A stretch of DNA of 64,000 nucleotides from Magnetospirillum sp. XM-1 (lineage in GTDB: Bacteria > Pseudomonadota > Alphaproteobacteria > Rhodospirillales > Magnetospirillaceae): positions 2,818,001 through 2,882,000 of the forward strand of contig NZ_LN997848.1 of NCBI RefSeq assembly GCF_001511835.1, written 5' to 3'. The first letter of the stretch is position 1, and every line of letters starts with the position of its first letter. Below are positions 2,450 to 9,575 of the stretch, piece after piece. The position numbers and the translations under genes are program-made. The notes under the pieces are model-generated. The model had not been told where the DNA came from. It ran no database searches and saw only the letters and a list, made by a program, of their open reading frames with translations.

Positions 2450-3052
2450 TCACTCCCTGCTCCGTTCGATCCAGCCAGGGTCTTCCGGGAATTTTGCCAA
2501 TAATTTTTGCATTCGCATGATCGCAAACGCAGCAACTTCATCGCAGTGCTGAATTATCGCACCATCGTGCTTGATATACCTAAGGTCACGAAATGCGACT
2601 TGTGCATAGGTTAAGATATCACGCGACTCCGACATCGCAATACCGTGCGGGATGAAGCCGACCGATGGTGCGAGCCACAAATCGTGATCGCTTAACCATT
2701 GCATGGAAATCTCGGCAAAACGGCTGATCTTGGCCTCTTGGGCTGAGCAGTATTCGCCGCGATCATGCAAGGTCATGCCGTTCTTGTCCTTGCCAAGTAC
2801 TGCTGCCCTTTCCTGATGCCAGTATCCTGGGGTGTTGATCTCGTCGTATGTGATGGGCGGCGGCGATGGCTTCGAGCCGAGGGAGTAATAATTGGGCAGG
2901 CCCGGATCGCGTGGATAGATCGGCGGGGGAGCGGCCTTAACCACACCGGCGGCCCCCTTGTCCGTCGAATAGAAGACGCCTTCCTGAGCGTTCGTGGCAA
3001 ATGTCGCAGTTAACAGCAAGCAGACTGATAGCAGCATGACTTGCGAACGCAT
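2450..3052 (-). CDS. Secreted or periplasmic hypothetical protein
   Basis: 200 residues from ATG 3052, chosen because GGAGGG stands five bases upstream; the in-frame TTG at 3064 would overlap that site. The N-terminus is a signal peptide: MRSQ, a hydrophobic core (VMLLSVCLLLTA) and a cleavage-like TNAQ at about residue 23. The mature part is Pro-rich for 60 residues (PPPIYPRDPGLPNYY) and then helical, with three Cys. No family recognised. It is a single gene with its own promoter and operator-like palindrome, lying between the cyclase-like and phosphatase genes. Confidence 0.65.
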   Translation of the reverse strand: MRSQVMLLSVCLLLTATFATNAQEGVFYSTDKGAAGVVKAAPPPIYPRDPGLPNYYSLGSKPSPPPITYDEINTPGYWHQERAAVLGKDKNGMTLHDRGEYCSAQEAKISRFAEISMQWLSDHDLWLAPSVGFIPHGIAMSESRDILTYAQVAFRDLRYIKHDGAIIQHCDEVAAFAIMRMQKLLAKFPEDPGWIERSRE

Positions 3053-3082
3053 AATGCCCTCCAATCAACCTGCCATATGTGC

Positions 3083-3118
3083 TTGTTACAATATAACAAC
3101 ATAAATACATATTATCAA
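3083..3118 (-). promoter_or_regulatory. Promoter with palindromic operator for the secreted-protein gene
   Basis: On the minus strand TTGATA (3118-3113), a 17-nt spacer and TATATT (3095-3090) form a good sigma-70 promoter. A palindrome TTGTTA-N5-TAACAA at 3083-3099 covers the -10 box, the layout expected for a repressor site. The gene starts at 3052. Confidence 0.5.
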
Positions 3119-3135
3119 TATATGCGGGGTAAAAT

Positions 3136-3327
3136 ATGCGATTAAATGACTTTACGATTTCTCCACAAGATGCCGTTTCTGTTGCTCCGAGACGATTGCC
3201 GCCGGTTAATAATGAGAACCTTATTAGATTTGAGGTGATGGCCGTCCTTGACCTGCTCCGAGGTGCTCTACATGATGCTCAGCGTCTGCTCGATCTGATT
3301 GACCGGCGATCAACCCCCTGCTTATGA
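3136..3327 (+). CDS. Small hypothetical protein
   Basis: 63 residues, starting MRLNDFTISP, with GGGGT six bases before the ATG. The sequence is basic in the middle and has a hydrophobic-charged helix at the end. The last 49 nt overlap the convergent phosphatase gene, which lowers confidence. It diverges from the secreted-protein gene with 83 nt between the starts. No family recognised. Confidence 0.35.
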   Translation: MRLNDFTISPQDAVSVAPRRLPPVNNENLIRFEVMAVLDLLRGALHDAQRLLDLIDRRSTPCL

Positions 3328-3824
3328 CCGTCAATCGCAGCAACCATCCGTCCTTCGAAGCCAAGAATCTTGTCCGCGAATCGGACAATCAGGCGATTGG
3401 GCATGGCACCTGGACGAAGACCGAGGATCAGGTCCATGGCTTGATCTGGGGACAGGTGAAGACAGGCCAGTACGAACGCTGCTGCGGTTGACCTACTGAC
3501 CCCTGCCCAACAATGAATGAGTACCTTGCTGCCGCTTGGGATGTTCCGCCCGAATTCCAGGATGGCGTGTGCGTGTTCGGCACAGGGGTATTCAGCCCGA
3601 TCCCTCGCCGACAACATCGTGCCGACCACCCCACCCATGGCGTGCAGATCGAAGAATCGCAGACTCAGAACCCTGATCGTTTCATCGAACACCAATGGAT
3701 CGTCTTGGTCATCGCCAGGGTCGAGTATCGAGATGACGTGTGACGGGCGAAGCGATTCCAACTCGTCAGCCAGTTCGTCCAGGCCGCAGATCGTTAGTTC
3801 GAAGGGCAATCCCGACTTTCCCAT
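3279..3824 (-). CDS. Dual-specificity / tyrosine phosphatase family protein
   Basis: 181 residues. The active-site loop is HCWAGVSRST at about residues 103-112, a textbook HC-x5-R-S/T signature, with Cys as nucleophile and Arg binding phosphate. An upstream FFDLHAMG loop (about residue 58) carries a candidate general-acid Asp. The length fits small bacterial DSP-like phosphatases; no signal peptide, so cytoplasmic. The start has GGGAGGGAG five bases upstream. The gene is transcribed from a strong minus-strand promoter at 3983-4011, back-to-back with the promoter of the replication genes. A perfect palindrome (3893-3911) lies in its 5' leader. Substrate unknown. Confidence 0.75.
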   Translation of the reverse strand: MGKSGLPFELTICGLDELADELESLRPSHVISILDPGDDQDDPLVFDETIRVLSLRFFDLHAMGGVVGTMLSARDRAEYPCAEHAHAILEFGRNIPSGSKVLIHCWAGVSRSTAAAFVLACLHLSPDQAMDLILGLRPGAMPNRLIVRFADKILGFEGRMVAAIDGHKQGVDRRSIRSSRR

Positions 3825-3892
3825 GACTCTCCCTCCCTATAACGGTGGGGACCATAACAGGTGCCTCAAATACGGCCAACCGACCGAGAGAG

Positions 3893-3911
3893 GTTTTCCG
3901 CTGCGGAAAAC
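3893..3911. repeat. Palindrome GTTTTCCGC-T-GCGGAAAAC, copy 1
   Basis: Nine-base arms around a single T. The same 19 bases recur at 8615-8633. This copy lies 69-87 nt upstream of the phosphatase start, inside its transcribed leader if the promoter at 3983-4011 is used. There is no T-run after it, so it looks like a protein-binding site rather than a terminator. Confidence 0.8.
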
Positions 3912-3982
3912 GTAGCCGCCAAAAGGCAAATACAGACCAAACAAAGCGACGTAGATGCGAAGAATATAAATAGATATATTAA

Positions 3983-4011
3983 ATTATACAAAATAAATAT
4001 TGAATAGTCAA
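3983..4011 (-). promoter_or_regulatory. Strong sigma-70 promoter toward the phosphatase gene
   Basis: On the minus strand TTGACT (4011-4006), exactly 17 nt, then TATAAT (3988-3983). It overlaps, in the opposite direction, the plus-strand promoter at 4000-4028, so the two may compete. A start near 3976 would give a leader of about 150 nt before the phosphatase gene. Confidence 0.65.
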
Positions 4012-4028
4012 GTATTGTATAGTATAAA
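4000..4028 (+). promoter_or_regulatory. Sigma-70 promoter of the primase leader RNA
   Basis: TTGAAT (4000-4005), a 17-nt spacer and TATAAA (4023-4028), in a very AT-rich stretch (3960-4035). Transcription would begin near 4035 and meet a terminator at 4135-4168 before the primase gene. Confidence 0.6.
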
Positions 4029-4034
4029 TAATTA

Positions 4035-4168
4035 TAACGCTGGTTCCAAAATAGGCGTGAGAGGTTTTGTTGCGTAATAGTTTGTTGGAGTAATCCGATT
4101 TAGCATTTTCGTGCCACATTACCTCTCGGCACCGCCCCCAGCGACTGGAACCCGCTGGGGGCTTTTTT
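4035..4168 (+). ncRNA. Candidate leader RNA / small RNA upstream of the primase gene
   Basis: This transcript of about 130 nt would start at the promoter 4000-4028 and end at the terminator 4135-4168, with no gene inside. A hairpin GTGCC/GGCAC (4111-4115 with 4128-4132) exposes a 12-nt loop whose TTACCTC (4119-4125) is complementary to the primase Shine-Dalgarno GAGGTAA (4171-4177). The same loop can also pair with GAGAGGT at 4059-4065. These options suggest an attenuator or an SD-sequestering RNA acting in cis or in trans. All of this is read from sequence; no family is recognised and expression is unproven. Confidence 0.5.
4135..4168 (+). terminator. Intrinsic terminator just upstream of the primase gene
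   Basis: CCCCCAGC (4135-4142) pairs with GCTGGGGG (4154-4161) across an 11-nt loop and is followed by CTTTTTT. It ends 12 nt before the primase start codon, which points to control of the replication genes by premature termination. Confidence 0.8.
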
Positions 4169-4180
4169 GTGAGGTAACGA

Positions 4181-5128
4181 ATGAAATATACTATTGGAAG
4201 AAACAAGGAGCAAAACTACCCGAGCGTCATTGAGGATGATTGGGCCGGATTTGTCTCCTCGCTCCAGGATATGTCCCAGGCGGACATCCAAGGGGCGAAC
4301 AAGGATGAGTGCAAGGATCAGGCATACGGATTGACCGCCTGCACCTTCACTGGTGATGGCCGCCGGTTGAAGGCCAATGCCACAGAAACCGAGTTCGTGT
4401 GGCTGGATTGCGAAGTAGGAAAGCCGAACGAACTTGCCAAGGCGATTGATGGTCTCCGTACCATTGGGTTGGAGGCGGTGGTCTATAGCTCTGCCGGTCA
4501 TGCCCCACCGGCAGACCGATTCCGCATCATCCTGCCGCTGGCGTCACCGATCAGCAGCCACACAGATTATCGACGGGTTTGCCTGCAATTGCAGGCCAGC
4601 CTGGGAGTGGCGATAGATCGCAGCAAACTCACCATGTACGCACTGCTGTATCAACCGGCCCGATATTCCTCGGCCACGAAGAATGTGTTCGTCCATCTTC
4701 CTGGCACCATTCTTACTGCGGAAGACTGGATATCGGTCTGCCCGCCTGCACCAGCAAAACCGGCCATGCCGACCGTTCCCCTGACTATCAGCAATATTCC
4801 AAGCGGATATGTCGAGGCTGCGGTGAAGGGGGAGATCAGCCGAATCGCATCGGCGGTTTCTGGCCAGCGTCACAACACCATCCTGTCGGCGGCCATCCGA
4901 TTGGCCGAACTGTCCAAGGCTGATGTTTTGGACTGGTCGGTGGCGGCAGCCATCATCATGGAACATGGGGTCGCATCGGTCGGCCACGGAAGCAGGCAGG
5001 AGGTTGAGGACATCGTTCGATACGCCTGGGCGACCGCTCAACCACGACAATTAAAGGAACAAATAAGCAACATATCCGCTATTCGCATGAAGGCGGGAGC
5101 AAAAAGAAAGGAACTTGCACATGTCTGA
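4181..5128 (+). CDS. Archaeo-eukaryotic-type primase, replication protein
   Basis: 315 residues. The central part matches the bifunctional primase/polymerase layout: FVWLDCE (about residue 72, metal-binding acids), SSAGHAPPADRFRIILPL (about 103-120, the conserved His and the strand typical of replication primases), and a further acid region near AIDRSKLT. The C-terminal third (GQRHNTILSAAIRLAEL...) is the helical segment often found after such primase domains. It likely makes primers to start replication of the element. SD GAGGTAA lies six bases before ATG 4181. The stop overlaps the helicase start by 8 nt, so the two are probably translationally coupled. Family confident, exact replicon type not. 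Confidence 0.7.
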   Translation: MKYTIGRNKEQNYPSVIEDDWAGFVSSLQDMSQADIQGANKDECKDQAYGLTACTFTGDGRRLKANATETEFVWLDCEVGKPNELAKAIDGLRTIGLEAVVYSSAGHAPPADRFRIILPLASPISSHTDYRRVCLQLQASLGVAIDRSKLTMYALLYQPARYSSATKNVFVHLPGTILTAEDWISVCPPAPAKPAMPTVPLTISNIPSGYVEAAVKGEISRIASAVSGQRHNTILSAAIRLAELSKADVLDWSVAAAIIMEHGVASVGHGSRQEVEDIVRYAWATAQPRQLKEQISNISAIRMKAGAKRKELAHV

Positions 5129-6650
5129 TTTCATAAAACTTTTAGGAGAATGGCTGGATTTGCAGTCTGGAACCACCATCACCGATTCCGCACGCATCGA
5201 TTCATTCATCGCGGCGGCCAAGCAGTGGGACGGAACCGAATTGGACCTCGTGGATCACATGGCGATGGTTCTAACCGCCCATACCAAACTGCGTCGGCCA
5301 ACCATTGAACAACTTTGCCAGAACATGAAGGTCAAAATCGGCCTTGGCGTAATTCCCAAAAATCACATCGAGTTTGTTCGTGCATATTGCAAAAAGCATT
5401 CTGTGAAATACACCCTTGATCGCCAGATCACCATGGGTGGTTCGGAAGCAGCCGACCGCGATGTTTTCAATGAACTATTTTTATGGACCGGAGAATTTGG
5501 CGTGTTCACCGGGCGGGACTACCTGACATCAGCATGGCAGAAATGGAAAGCTGAACAGGAACGTTTGAACGCCAAGGAGTTCAGCGAACGCATCGCATTC
5601 GATCCCGATGTACCATCGGATGGATGGAATCTGGTGGTTGATGCCCTGTGTGCTGATCTTGGTGACGCACCACTCGGTCTGACCAAGGCGGAATATCTCA
5701 AACTGGTGAAGGCGGTGTTCCTCGGCTCGGTATGGCGGGTAAAACGCAAACAACTCAACCTCCCCACCATCCAGCACATCATGCTCTATCTGCGGGGCAA
5801 GCAGGGATGCGGCAAGACCAGCTTCATGCGTTGGTTTCTTGGCCCGGTGGTGGACGGCATGATCCAGACCGACTTCGGGATGTTCGACCACGACGAAAAA
5901 CAGATCATCATGAAGAACACACCGGTTATATTTTTTGATGAAGTGGCTCGTGCCGACAAGGCCGACGCTGCCAAGGTCAAAAACATGATGACCTCCGATA
6001 CCGGCATGTTCCGCAAATTGTACGGCGAAGCCAGTAAGGGCCGAATGATCTCGACCTTCTTTGGTGCGGGTAACCTCGACCTCACCGAAGTGTTCCATGA
6101 CCCGACCGGGCTACGCCGATTTTTCCAGGTTGAATGTCGCAAAGACCTTTACACTCGTTTGGACGAATTATTCGAACAAGTCGATCCCCTCGACCTCTGG
6201 AAGTCGGTCAATGAAAACGAAGCGTGCCCGACTGAAACGAAGGAAATTATCGATCTACTGATGCGAGTTGAAACCACGAAGCGGCTGATGACACCGGTCG
6301 AAGAATGGATAAAGTGCGAGATCGATGGCGGTGGCTGGCCGGATTTTTTAGGAATCCAGGACATGTTTCTGAACTTTTCCGAGTGGAAGGAAAAGCTCTA
6401 CCCGCACGATAAAACCAACCTCAGCAGCTTCTCCACCCAACTTGGTCGCATCCTGCGGGATGGCGATTATGACCACGAAAAGCGGCTCGACCCTTCGTCT
6501 CGTCGAGCCACTTATCGGTTAGGAGTTCATCTGGAAACCAACAACCCCGACTACGTAAACCGCAAGAACGCAGTTGTCGTAGCCATCAGCAAGTCACGGG
6601 CGGATGCCCGAAGGGGTTATAACCAAGAAAACATAGCAAAAACAGCGTAG
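5121..6650 (+). CDS. VirE/D5-type replicative helicase (SF3-like ATPase)
   Basis: 509 residues from ATG 5121, which has AGGAA upstream and overlaps the primase stop; TTG 5115 is an alternative. Walker A is GKQGCGKTSF (about residue 228) and Walker B TPVIFFDEVA (about 270), followed by the sensor-like STFFGAGN and the TGLRRFFQVE arginine region typical of virulence-associated E / phage primase-helicase proteins. It would unwind DNA at the element's origin together with the preceding primase; in phage P4 both activities sit in one protein, here they are split. The repeat field that starts inside its 3' end is a likely origin. No truncation seen. Confidence 0.8.
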   Translation: MSDFIKLLGEWLDLQSGTTITDSARIDSFIAAAKQWDGTELDLVDHMAMVLTAHTKLRRPTIEQLCQNMKVKIGLGVIPKNHIEFVRAYCKKHSVKYTLDRQITMGGSEAADRDVFNELFLWTGEFGVFTGRDYLTSAWQKWKAEQERLNAKEFSERIAFDPDVPSDGWNLVVDALCADLGDAPLGLTKAEYLKLVKAVFLGSVWRVKRKQLNLPTIQHIMLYLRGKQGCGKTSFMRWFLGPVVDGMIQTDFGMFDHDEKQIIMKNTPVIFFDEVARADKADAAKVKNMMTSDTGMFRKLYGEASKGRMISTFFGAGNLDLTEVFHDPTGLRRFFQVECRKDLYTRLDELFEQVDPLDLWKSVNENEACPTETKEIIDLLMRVETTKRLMTPVEEWIKCEIDGGGWPDFLGIQDMFLNFSEWKEKLYPHDKTNLSSFSTQLGRILRDGDYDHEKRLDPSSRRATYRLGVHLETNNPDYVNRKNAVVVAISKSRADARRGYNQENIAKTA

Positions 6651-6979: not shown

Positions 6980-7288
6980 ATGAGGGGGTTACGTGATATT
7001 TATAGCGAATTATTTTCCCTTGGCATTGTACGAAATGGCCGACAATTTGGGGAGTGGATGAACAGGGGGGAATCTTACCTTAGCTCTTCCTTGTCGAGAA
7101 ACCGCCGCCCATCAACCGAAGCCCTGTTGGCCCTGGTGTCCAATGTCAGCGATGCCATTGATGCGACCAACGAGGAATTAGTAGTTTGCACAGAATCTTC
7201 TGAAATCATGGAATACAAAGAAGGTGTCGAAGCACTTAAAAAATTAGAATCTGAAGCATGGTCAGAAATATGGAAGCGTGTTGGGTAG
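6980..7288 (+). CDS. Small hypothetical protein (DUF6626-like)
   Basis: 102 residues with a strong SD (GGAGGT, six bases before ATG). The segment GRQFGEWMNRGESYLSSSLSRNRRPSTEALLAL looks like a degenerate helix-turn-helix: a small protein with conserved R-x-P-S-T before the last helix. It recalls the DUF6626 family of alphaproteobacterial small proteins, from memory. The C-terminal 35 residues are acidic and helical. It is the first gene after the repeat field; a role in control of replication is possible but not shown. Confidence 0.6.
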   Translation: MRGLRDIYSELFSLGIVRNGRQFGEWMNRGESYLSSSLSRNRRPSTEALLALVSNVSDAIDATNEELVVCTESSEIMEYKEGVEALKKLESEAWSEIWKRVG

Positions 7289-7378
7289 GGTATTCATATA
7301 AAATATTTGACCCCCTATATTGCAAATACCAAATTGAATCCGTAACCTATGTGCAGGTATCAACGCATGGAGGTTACT

Positions 7379-7807
7379 ATGCTTAACCTGAAGCTGTCCG
7401 ATGCATCGCGGCCCTTGATTGCCGAAACCCGCAAGAAGTCTGCCCGTGAAGTCGTGCTGGATGGCATCGGTCACCAGATCGGTCTGCTCACCGACAAAGC
7501 CTATACGGTGGAACGCACCCGGTATTCCAAGAACGCCGATGGCACTTCCTGCCGCAAGGTGGTTGCCGCTCCTCCGAAGCCCTGGTTTTGGCGGGCGACG
7601 GATGGCACCATCATGGTGCAGGTCAAGTACGGTCACGCTGTCGTCGTGGAAATCGAACCGGGGAAGCCGACCATCATCGCCGGAAAATCGGAGAAGGATG
7701 CGGTGTCGGTACTGGCCCAGGTGGTCGAAGCGGTTAAATCCGGCAAGCTCGACCCGCAGATCGAGGCTGCCAAGGCGAAGGCCAAAATGAACCGCAAGGG
7801 GGAATAG
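7379..7807 (+). CDS. Small hypothetical protein (DUF6641-like)
   Basis: 142 residues from ATG 7379, chosen for its SD GGAGGTTACT; GTG or ATG further upstream lack one. The core VAAPPKPWFWRATDG..MVQVKYGHAVVVEIEPGKPTI matches the pattern I recall for DUF6641 proteins, which occur widely near integrases and plasmid genes in alphaproteobacteria: a basic N-terminal helix, a Trp-rich beta segment and a C-terminal helical end with D-x-x-I. Function unknown. It converges on the recombinase gene. Confidence 0.6.
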   Translation: MLNLKLSDASRPLIAETRKKSAREVVLDGIGHQIGLLTDKAYTVERTRYSKNADGTSCRKVVAAPPKPWFWRATDGTIMVQVKYGHAVVVEIEPGKPTIIAGKSEKDAVSVLAQVVEAVKSGKLDPQIEAAKAKAKMNRKGE

Positions 7808-7857: not shown

Positions 7858-8439
7858 TCAGATCAGGTTCACCAATTTGCGTTTGGCATCGGTGTCGCCC
7901 TCAATGTACCTCGCCGTCATCTGCAAACTGCTGTGACCGGCCAGTTGCTGGACATCCCTCAAAGAACCACCGGCCATGCCGACTTTTTTGGCGGCGGTGG
8001 TGACAAAGGTGCGGCGACCGCTGTGGCTGCTACACCCAAGGAAGCCCATCCGGTCATAGAGCCGACCAAACCACGCAACCACCGTGTTGGCCGACATGCC
8101 GATCCCACGCTCGGAAAAGATCACCGGGGAACTGGAGCCGCGAATGCCCATGCCATGCAGTTCGATCAGGGCTGCTCGAAGCTCCCGGTTCAGGGGGATG
8201 GTTCGTCCCGACGTTCCCTTGCTGGCCCGGTCCTCAAGATGCAGGGCATCCCCGACCTGACCATCAGCGGTCAGCACCATGACCCATTCGAGCATGGCGA
8301 TCTCCTTCGCCCGCAATCCGGCCTTGATCGACAGCAGGAACATCGCCCGATCTCTGGCGGCGTAACGCGACCCAGAAAGATGCATCAGCACGGTACCGAT
8401 CTGGGCGGTCGAGAGGGTCTTCGCTTGCTTACCGGCCAT
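7858..8439 (-). CDS. Tyrosine recombinase, catalytic domain only
   Basis: 193 residues covering just the catalytic domain of phage-integrase family enzymes. The active-site set is complete: Arg in KAGLRAKEIAMLEW (about residue 43), Lys near ASKGTSGRTIPL, HSGRRTFVT (H-x-x-R), GHSSLQMTARYIEG with the late His and the nucleophile Tyr. The N-terminal core- and arm-binding domains of full-length integrases are missing, with no sign of an upstream remnant, so this seems to be a natural short family. It may resolve or invert DNA, or excise the element. Upstream lie repeated ATGATGAGT motifs and a long palindrome. Whether it made the radC insertion cannot be told. Confidence 0.8.
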   Translation of the reverse strand: MAGKQAKTLSTAQIGTVLMHLSGSRYAARDRAMFLLSIKAGLRAKEIAMLEWVMVLTADGQVGDALHLEDRASKGTSGRTIPLNRELRAALIELHGMGIRGSSSPVIFSERGIGMSANTVVAWFGRLYDRMGFLGCSSHSGRRTFVTTAAKKVGMAGGSLRDVQQLAGHSSLQMTARYIEGDTDAKRKLVNLI

Positions 8440-8479: not shown

Positions 8480-8582
8480 ATGATGAGTATAGCCGGAGTT
8501 TCGAATCAAAACAATCCCACCCCATTGAAAAACATGGCGTTTCTGGCAACTCATCATGAAATGAGTATTTTATGACGAGTTG
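8480..8582. promoter_or_regulatory. Repeated ATGATGAGT motifs upstream of the recombinase gene
   Basis: CAACTCATCAT (8547-8557) and ATGACGAGTTG (8572-8582) form an inverted repeat with one mismatch, around a further ATGAGTAT at 8561-8568; ATGATGAGTAT recurs at 8480-8490. The last copy covers the -10 box (TATACT on the minus strand, with TTGTTT 17 nt upstream) of a likely recombinase promoter. The cluster could bind a regulator or the recombinase itself. Confidence 0.5.
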
Positions 8583-8612
8583 CGATCCTGGAGATGGCCG
8601 GTGATCTGCTGG

Positions 8613-8635
8613 AGGTTTTCCGCTGCGGAAAACCT
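8613..8635. repeat. Palindrome GTTTTCCGC-T-GCGGAAAAC, copy 2
   Basis: Same 19-base palindrome as at 3893-3911, here with 11-base perfect arms (8613-8635). It overlaps the stop codon of the minus-strand gene that ends at 8634 and lies 175 nt upstream of the recombinase start. No T-run follows on either strand. Confidence 0.8.
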
Positions 8636-9575
8636 ATGTCCGATCCGCCTTCGCCTTGTTCCAGATGCTGTCGAACTCTTCTTCTTTTTCGAGCGATTCA
8701 AGAAGTCTCTTCCATTCACCGTGGTCGAATGGCTTGCGTAATTTACGTTCATCGGTTGGTGGCGTTGAGAAAATACCAAACTTCCTTTCTAAAATTCGAA
8801 AGACCTCCTTCAGCATGGATACATTGCCTTCTTTTATAATAGAGATGGCATGTTCATATGCCAAGCGGCGATGGCTCAAAACCCGCTCTGTGTGTGCATC
8901 GCGATTGGTTCCCGCCGATTTTTCAAGCCGCCTCACGGTCTTGATAAAGTTCACCGCGAGATAGTGGCGGTTTTGCAGCTTGAACGCCCCCTCCTCATCC
9001 TCAACCCGCTTCAGGTAATCTTCGAAGCCTGGATTATCTGGGCACACGCCGCCTTCCCAACGGACGACGCAATCGATCTTGCCTGTTACTTCATGCTCGC
9101 CCCCGGCTTTCACTTTCTGGAAAATAGGGCATCTTTCCGGTCGGTCGGCGGCGTCAGCGAGTGCCCCCATCAGTCTGAGTTTGCCTTCGCGGAGTGTCGG
9201 GCAGATCATTTCGCAAGCTTCGTCAAGATTGATGAGCTTATCAAGAACCTCATCGACGATGACAATCGGCACAACGCACTTAAATAGAATCTGCTTAATC
9301 TGCGGCGACAACATAGACCACTCTAAAATTAGTAGTCCATACGGGAATACGATTTCATCATACATGCGGCCAAATGTAATATTATTAATAAGCTCGACGA
9401 GTGTTTTGTTTCCGTCTTGATTTTCTTCAATGAACCCAGCGATGTTAATTCCCGCATTTTTTGCAACAGAGCGGCACGCGAATTCCGGCGTGAAGCCGTT
9501 GCGATGCCCCCATCGCGGCTCGTCCTCGGTCGTAGAAAGCGGGCGAATGTAGGCAACAAAATCTGGCGGGATCAT
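8634..9575 (-). CDS. Hypothetical protein with a resolvase-like N-terminal region
   Basis: 313 residues from ATG 9575 (GGAG nine bases upstream); a longer frame to 9626 has no SD. The first 110 residues follow the rhythm of the serine-recombinase catalytic domain: FVAYIRPLST, then a helix and NAGINIAGFIEE, TLVELINNI, EIVFPYGLLILEW and VVPIVIVDE. The Arg and Ser of the active site would be in YIRPLST, but spacing differs from the usual Y-x-R-x-S-T and later Arg residues are not obvious. The rest is charged and helical and has no recombinase DNA-binding end. I would call it unknown, possibly a diverged resolvase-fold protein. Confidence 0.5.
   Translation of the reverse strand: MIPPDFVAYIRPLSTTEDEPRWGHRNGFTPEFACRSVAKNAGINIAGFIEENQDGNKTLVELINNITFGRMYDEIVFPYGLLILEWSMLSPQIKQILFKCVVPIVIVDEVLDKLINLDEACEMICPTLREGKLRLMGALADAADRPERCPIFQKVKAGGEHEVTGKIDCVVRWEGGVCPDNPGFEDYLKRVEDEEGAFKLQNRHYLAVNFIKTVRRLEKSAGTNRDAHTERVLSHRRLAYEHAISIIKEGNVSMLKEVFRILERKFGIFSTPPTDERKLRKPFDHGEWKRLLESLEKEEEFDSIWNKAKADRT

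Follow-up and report, generated by a model that had tools for sequence, protein, structure and literature searches.

The window, by which we mean the whole 64,000-nucleotide stretch of DNA analysed, holds a small element made up of a leader followed by primase-like, VapE/DUF5906, DUF6626, DUF6641 and tyrosine recombinase genes. The leader, about 135 nt long, lies between a promoter (−10 box at 4023-4028) and the primase ATG at 4181 and contains an intrinsic terminator. Its parts and the genes around it are as follows.

2450-3064, minus strand: secreted-like gene, 204 aa
3279-3824, minus strand: phosphatase-like gene
4000-4028, plus strand: promoter, −35 TTGAAT, 17 nt, −10 TATAAA(TA); start expected near 4035
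4037-4058, plus strand: 5' hairpin H1 (ACGC/GCGT), whose loop holds kiss5
4042-4048, plus strand: kiss5, GGTTCCA, complementary to the terminator loop
4059-4065, plus strand: segment A, GAGAGGT (seqA-like), complementary to B
4085-4098, plus strand: small hairpin H2, TTGGA-GTAA-TCCGA, with a GNRA loop
4111-4132, plus strand: hairpin H3 (GTGCC/GGCAC), whose 12-nt loop presents B
4119-4127, plus strand: segment B, TTACCTCTC (CI-like), pairs with A or C
4134-4168, plus strand: intrinsic terminator, 10-bp stem, 9-nt loop, T6
4146-4152, plus strand: kiss3, TGGAACC, in the terminator loop
4171-4177, plus strand: segment C, GAGGTAA, the primase Shine-Dalgarno sequence (seqC-like)
4181-5128, plus strand: primase-like gene, 315 aa, the putative regulated gene (PHROG matches)
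5115-6650, plus strand: VapE/DUF5906 helicase-like gene (TTG start listed at 5115; in-frame ATG at 5121)
6980-7288, plus strand: DUF6626 gene
7349-7807, plus strand: DUF6641 gene
7858-8439, minus strand: short tyrosine recombinase, 193 aa

The promoter (−35 at 4000-4005, a 17-nt spacer, −10 as above) and the terminator (stem-loop at 4134-4162, T6 at 4163-4168, ending 12 nt 5' of the ATG) rest on direct reading, with positions located by script, and bear out the arrangement of promoter, leader and terminator proposed in the initial annotation. A simple promoter and terminator scanner missed both, as it accepts only T in the final −10 position and no loop longer than 8 nt. The gene that follows matches PHROG helicase-primase, helicase and primase N-terminal families (E 1e-10 to 1e-8) and has no Pfam or NCBIfam match; its fold model was poor (pLDDT 54.7) and was left unused, and a profile search of the PDB gave no convincing match. 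The name “primase” accordingly derives from the PHROG matches and from one source's name for the related protein P0007.

Pairings and energies of the window leader

Hairpin H3 has the form GTGCC-ACATTACCTCTC-GGCAC, and its loop contains two overlapping complementarities: TTACCTC (4119-4125) is complementary to GAGGTAA in the primase Shine-Dalgarno region, and ACCTCTC (4121-4127) to GAGAGGT earlier in the leader. Both had been pointed out in the initial annotation and were found at the positions listed. To these we add a further match: kiss5, carried by the loop of H1 at the 5' end, and kiss3, in the terminator loop, are reverse complements of each other. The order along the leader is kiss5, A, B, kiss3, C, with pairings kiss5/kiss3, A/B and B/C. 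This is the order of an antiparallel two-part duplex, so that the 3' half of one leader can align along the 5' half of another.

The RNA from 4035 to 4200 exceeds all 200 of its dinucleotide shuffles in stability (z = −4.0), a figure to which the terminator alone contributes part. In the terminated RNA the A-B state (−53.2 kcal/mol) lies about 10 kcal/mol below the H3 state (−43.0 kcal/mol); for the read-through RNA the gap between the A-B state (−56.2 kcal/mol) and the B-C state (−50.0 kcal/mol) is about 6 kcal/mol, again in favour of A-B. By default, then, A sequesters B and leaves the Shine-Dalgarno sequence open. The hairpin described earlier as displaying an anti-Shine-Dalgarno loop is present but is, by energy, a minor form rather than the main state. 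On the same grounds B is largely inaccessible until A is captured or removed by cleavage, so that any action in trans would need processing or a kinetic path; the H3 stem is, however, identical in the window and in both close relatives described below, which argues that B is at times displayed as a loop. The lowest-energy fold of the terminated RNA also has three pairs inside the H1 loop region. The terminator stem was kept in all four folds that we forced (A-B or H3 in the terminated RNA, A-B or B-C in the read-through RNA), and there is therefore no sign in them of an attenuator; attenuation in the strict sense, offered in the initial annotation as one possible mode of control, is not borne out.

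Conservation of the segments in related leaders

Six leaders falling into four independent groups were compared, namely the close group (the window, L125 and L126), L136, L140 and L211; the three close leaders are related and so do not count as three cases. L125 (the same place as L003 and L129) and L126 (on a contig binned as Magnetococcales) are the close relatives for which DNA was available. Magnetospirillum sulfuroxidans J10 (G044, listed as the same family) is the relative with DNA and the full primase, and the protein P0002 is closer to the window primase (90 percent). The start of the L125 gene was taken as the GTG at 6001; in the public protein P0007 (278 aa) it is placed further downstream, and the residues between the GTG and the P0007 start align with the window primase.

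Both close leaders retain the −10 box, H1, an 8-bp kiss pair, the H3 stem GTGCC/GGCAC, the terminator and C; by reading, TATAAATA also precedes both, and the −35 box is kept in neither. Conservation of the loop and Shine-Dalgarno complementarity in related elements had been set in advance as a test in the initial annotation, and the complementarity is kept. In L125, the closest relative with DNA, the two sides have changed together, from TTACCTC/GAGGTAA to TCACCTC/GAGGTGA, so that the second B-C pair goes from U-A to C-G by a change on both sides, and in the distant relatives the pairing is made with other letters. A-B is likewise kept in L125 in a different register and in different letters (GTGACGCA/TGCGTCAC), and in L126 A-B and B-C are each 9 bp long. 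One pair of the terminator stem is changed on both sides in L125, and a different pair in L126. The H1 stem reads ACGTC/GACGT in L125 and GCGTC/GACGT in L126; H2 has the loop GAAA in L126 and was not seen in the L125 leader.

The remaining leaders are far more diverged. L136 (locus L130), from another family of the order, was found with a profile of nine primases, and its protein is 26 percent identical to the window primase; L140 (locus L139), from another family of the class, was found after L130 had been added to the profile, with a weak E of 4.8e-4. L211 (G185) has a helicase 38 percent identical to that of the window. Start codons were chosen by reading (TTG in L136, ATG in L140, our own choice in L211); for L140 the depositors begin 19 codons earlier, their protein P0010 (100 percent identical) having 927 aa against the 908 chosen here. 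L136 and L140 have the full layout in their own letters. L136 has the kiss ATGAACC/GGTTCAT, an A-B pairing of 10 bp and a B-C pairing of 14 bp that includes four G-U pairs and runs across AAGGAG, and L140 has the kiss GTTCGCAA/TTGCGAAC, an A-B pairing of 13 bp with one G-U pair and a B-C pairing of 7 bp over AGGACAGA. In L211 the A-B pairing is interrupted and B-C occurs at two sites, of 9 and 7 bp, which end 15 and 49 nt before the chosen primase ATG and so do not directly cover its Shine-Dalgarno-like GGGGG. We claim no kiss for L211, where the best candidate has 5 bp and sits in a stem rather than a loop. By reading, GATAAATA precedes the leaders of L136, L140 and L211, standing farther from the first hairpin in L211.

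Across the whole set, a kiss of 7-8 bp is present in five of six leaders, L211 being the failure, and the order kiss5, A, B, kiss3, C is identical in those five; A, B and C are present in all six, as is a terminator between the leader start and the gene. A-B spans 7 to 13 bp in the five leaders other than L211. B-C spans 7 to 14 bp, covering the Shine-Dalgarno sequence in the window, L125, L126, L136 and L140 and adjoining it in L211. The energy of A-B beats or equals that of B-C in five of six leaders (L125 is the exception and L136 a tie).

We assessed the kiss against 2000 dinucleotide shuffles of each leader with the terminator held fixed, leaving unused the location of the site (no farther in than nt 23 in the window, L125, L126, L136 and L140), and assessed A-B-C jointly against 300 shuffles by the lower of the A-B and B-C energies. 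The numbers of shuffles reaching the observed values were:

Leader: kiss length (of 2000); joint A-B-C energy (of 300)
Window: 48; 10
L125: 1; 0
L126: 10; 0
L136: 127; 0
L140: 7; 0
L211: 473; 10

Taken alone, the window is thus only moderately significant on either count, and it is conservation that makes the case. The 7-mer kiss pair at a distance of 80-110 nt, a pair chosen after the fact, occurs at one place in the window and in 0 of 100 shuffles. Among 57 strong control terminators from other fetched stretches, to which a shorter version of the test was applied (105 nt upstream, 22 nt downstream, 100 shuffles), none had a kiss of at least 7 in the first 40 nt and one had a kiss of 6, and the A-B-C p value was at most 0.01 in none, at most 0.035 in one and at most 0.05 in two. 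In a separate control of seven terminators A-B-C reached p ≤ 0.03 in none, and a kiss of at least 7 occurred anywhere in one. That one, L037, has a 10-nt match between loop and upstream sequence, at a different distance and with an A-B-C p of 0.99.

A blind strict scan for terminator loops with seven letters recurring as a reverse complement upstream, covering 2,294,576 bases counting both strands, gave matches only at the window, at copies of L125 and L126 and at L139; L136 falls just outside the stem rule of that scan and was spotted by eye and by a looser scan. The looser scan gave 10 matches in 85 family loci (914,822 bases), comprising L125, L126, L136, L140 and six weak ones with terminator scores of 15 to 20 against 25 to 31 for the four leaders, while 120 stretches of viral DNA (2,097,628 bases over both strands) yielded 12. 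For this viral background, at least 120 stretches matched a loose DNA pattern, and under the strict rule none of the 120 used had a terminator at the pattern.

Modes of control consistent with the leader

Judged from these sequences, the leader is very probably a genuine RNA switch, acting in the manner of the P4 and P1 phage immunity RNAs. The reading we favour is the copy-number or lysogeny-type control by a small RNA already suggested in the initial annotation; that this takes the form of a trans-acting, self-targeting control RNA for replication of a small integrative element seems to us somewhat more probable than otherwise. While the segments, their order, their complementarity and their conservation with changed letters are observed, we infer that the RNA is made and acts in trans, and likewise which way it regulates and in what sequence the steps occur. 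Most transcripts from a constitutive promoter would stop at the intrinsic terminator, and a short RNA of about 135 nt would accumulate in proportion to the copies of the element. The 3' half of this RNA (B and the terminator loop) would be a two-part antisense to its own 5' half (the 5' hairpin loop and A), with B also serving as an antisense to C, the primase Shine-Dalgarno sequence, on the rare read-through transcript. In a cell bearing the element, B of the short RNA, freed as the H3 loop or by processing from A, would contact the nascent leader through the loop-loop pairing and capture A, after which B of the leader or of its partner would cover C; with C covered, the primase would go untranslated and the element would stay quiet. 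On entry into a cell that lacks the short RNA, A would hold B in cis, C would be free and read-through transcripts would yield primase. We prefer a released short RNA because this is the simplest reading that uses every conserved part, namely the loop-loop contact, the A-B exchange and the closing of C; the retention of the terminator in the four forced folds fits an RNA that is made and released.

The main rival, which we regard as unlikely, is a translational switch acting in cis only, in which a protein, temperature, the ribosome or a replication factor would shift the balance between A-B (Shine-Dalgarno sequence free) and B-C (blocked) and the terminator would only lower the level of expression. 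Such a switch would account for the presence in all six leaders of A-B and B-C, which exclude each other because both use B, and for the difference of about 6 kcal/mol between the two states of the window read-through RNA. It leaves unexplained, however, the match between terminator loop and 5' hairpin that recurs with varied letters in five of six leaders, and gives no reason for a strong terminator ahead of the switch; nor was any conserved block of letters that might be a ligand or protein site noticed across the four groups when the unaligned leaders were compared by eye. A second rival is a transcription attenuator, in which an alternative fold or bound RNA would prevent the terminator from forming and let polymerase into the primase operon; the position of the terminator between leader start and gene in six leaders and the ability of the nascent 5' loop to pair with the terminator loop would suit this. 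We nevertheless think an attenuator quite improbable: the four forced folds retain the terminator stem and offer no mutually exclusive antiterminator and terminator, the only competitor seen for the stem, CGCTGG in H1, is by reading lost from L125 but could still form in L126 with a single G-U pair, and the loop-loop contact is compatible with the terminator stem.

Two further readings strike us as very improbable. Control of the plasmid type by a counter-transcribed RNA from the opposite strand could draw on minus-strand promoter-like sites just upstream, at 4011 to 3983 (11/12) and 4049 to 4021 (9/12), but their transcripts would begin to the left of the leader and lead away from it, and no such minus-strand site was listed inside 4050-4180 in a scan of 3000-6000 with a simple consensus that also missed the sense promoter. 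An ordinary leader and terminator with chance complementarities would be in keeping with the modest statistics of the window by itself (48 of 2000 and 10 of 300 shuffles), and is contradicted, as far as tested, by the compensatory change in L125, by the same pairings in other letters in L136 and L140 (and, for A-B-C, in L211) and by the absence of a 5' kiss of 7 from all 57 control terminators.

Known RNA systems and the wider element family

The C4 antisense RNA of P1/P7 (RF01695; targets a1b1, RF03163) is a two-part self-antisense RNA with one target upstream in the same transcript and another downstream at a ribosome-binding site, and RNA immunity of the P4 and C4 kind is known mainly from enterobacterial phages. 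C4 is described, in the part of the source covered, as controlling Ant expression; it regulates an antirepressor operon, whereas the leader here precedes a primase and is unmatched by the Rfam models. Control of RepZ in IncIalpha and IncB plasmids involves a leader pseudoknot and a counter-transcribed Inc RNA. The likeness lies in a distant loop contact and in control of the Shine-Dalgarno sequence of a replication gene, while the counter-transcribed RNA has no counterpart indicated here by the simple consensus scan.

The closest parallel in layout is P4, whose CI RNA base-pairs with an upstream seqA and a downstream seqC, halting expression of the replication genes (PMC4825925). The likeness consists in a leader RNA of a replication operon with the same segment order (seqA-CI-seqC; PMC4825925, PMC10111431). 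As with CI, one leader segment here is complementary both to an upstream target (seqA, a1b1) and to a downstream target (seqC, a2b2). The differences are that C here is the primase Shine-Dalgarno sequence itself, that the terminator loop carries a second antisense part within a whole of about 135 nt, and that the terminator ahead of the replication operon is, by sequence, an intrinsic one (10-bp stem, T6). A P4 site is reportedly Rho-dependent, going by the title of Briani 1996, and a terminator scan of the transcribed strand of a 1.4-kb P4 piece found none.

The Rfam models C4 and isrK detect CI and seqA, as stated in the part of the source covered (PMC10111431), and the 1.4-kb P4 piece was matched by C4 at 74.9, isrK at 60.8 and c4-a1b1 at 44.1 bits; only c4-a1b1 fell short of its gathering score (46.7). 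The 64-kb window has no Rfam match at gathering score; with E up to 10, the interval 3900-4300 gave only NsiR1 and Spot_42 (E 3.5 and 4), and L125, L126, L136, L140 and L211 gave no C4, isrK or c4-a1b1 match at E up to 1. The earlier remark that no known family was recognised is therefore right for sequence, C4, isrK and c4-a1b1 all being unmatched, and too strong for mechanism, given the seqA-CI-seqC layout of P4. By analogy the leader would work like P4 CI and C4 without belonging to either by sequence, its intrinsic terminator and loop-loop part setting it apart. We found no published leader of this sort in the open-licence literature, which is a weak statement, and only tentatively suggest, at somewhat less than even confidence, that alphaproteobacterial integrative elements and prophages have a class of RNA immunity of their own, consisting of a self-antisense leader whose terminator loop is one of two recognition loops. 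If so, recognition letters differing by lineage could sort the elements that share a cell into immunity groups, and it would be unusual for the loop of a terminator to serve in recognition. The same segment order beside other primases in other bacteria, unseen by the Rfam models, points to a wider origin or spread of self-antisense leaders than RNA searches based on sequence reveal.

Few genomes carry this primase family. Counting the window's own genome and weak matches, it occurs in 3 of 99 near genomes, 7 of 317 genomes of the order and 3 of 385 of the class, with nine proteins in a large protein set. Genome contigs searched with the primase alone gave 13 pattern matches and no relatives, and a helicase profile run on 372 genomes of the class found only the window's own genome at E 1e-10. 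Viral contigs gave little or nothing with the primase, A2, L140 and L136 proteins, and one locus, L221, with the helicase profile; L211 is the same locus as this contig, which carries terminase and endolysin genes, so that one family member probably sits in a prophage. Plasmids and phages gave little or nothing by DNA. By protein, plasmids yielded at most single far matches per query, and phages none or one except with the L140 protein, for which 96 phage records had far matches, the 20 listed all falling in its second half. A distant primase match on a Rhodovastum plasmid (L135) was set aside as it has no kiss match.

Eighty DUF5906 loci were fetched from the order out of 89 listed places (three already known and six that were short, weak or passed over were left out, and some loci are cut by contig ends); only L211 was recognised among them, by reading rather than by the kiss scan, which gave weak matches only. 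A-B-C was assessed in these loci at listed terminators only, with L211 kept, L166 and L208 read and set aside, and L147 and L148 taken no further. Sister elements of the same genus share DUF6626, DUF6641 and, in several, the integrase, together with the phosphatase-like and secreted-like neighbours, and have a different replication gene (871 aa) or, in L236, none at that place. Loci L227-L247 gave no kiss match except the window's own copy, and between the phosphatase and the 871-aa gene there is no strong terminator in L239, L242 and L246 and one weak one in L245. Since sister elements with another replication gene have no kiss match, the leader seems to move together with its primase and helicase. 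Together these loci form a family of small elements whose replication genes are exchangeable, the 871-aa helicase-like protein being found in L239, L242, L245 and L246. Small integrated elements with an integrase, a primase and few other genes are also described as PICMI minimal satellites (PMC10803314, in part), and these form a likeness in that respect as far as the part of the source covered goes; that part contains no mention of RNA control, and the gene content differs, with no alpA among the scanned genes here.

Some smaller features of these loci may be recorded. A 25-nt palindromic repeat with a TTTTCCGCTGCGGAAAA core occurs at 3890-3914 and 8612-8636 (24/25 identical), and its first 22 nt, allowing up to 3 mismatches, are found nowhere else in the genome. 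The two copies flank a 4.7-kb span running from the leader through the integrase and may be att sites; in the sister loci examined, no such exact 16-nt repeat brackets the integrase, and the phosphatase gene that they share lies outside the repeats here. The 11/12 sigma-70-like promoter match on the minus strand at 3983-4011 is strong and reads left, and would, were the repeats att sites, drive the integrase only in a circular form. Just upstream of the integrase gene stands an inverted repeat (8541-8600), with similar ones in L228, L229, L236 and L237. The secreted-like and phosphatase-like genes co-occur beside DUF6626 and DUF6641, often with the same integrase type (L227, L236-L247), and the window's own genome and G009 have up to three close copies of the phosphatase. 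The Rhodovastum atsumiense plasmid RHOAph (L135; 10.7 kb) encodes a prohead protease/major capsid fusion, ParA and the distantly similar primase, and looks like a small phage-plasmid. On the reverse strand of L211, positions 3160-3230 contain a putative leader peptide of 14 codons, its stop codon overlapping the start of the primase (TAATG), and by reading B can pair near each of the two starts, that of the peptide and that of the primase.
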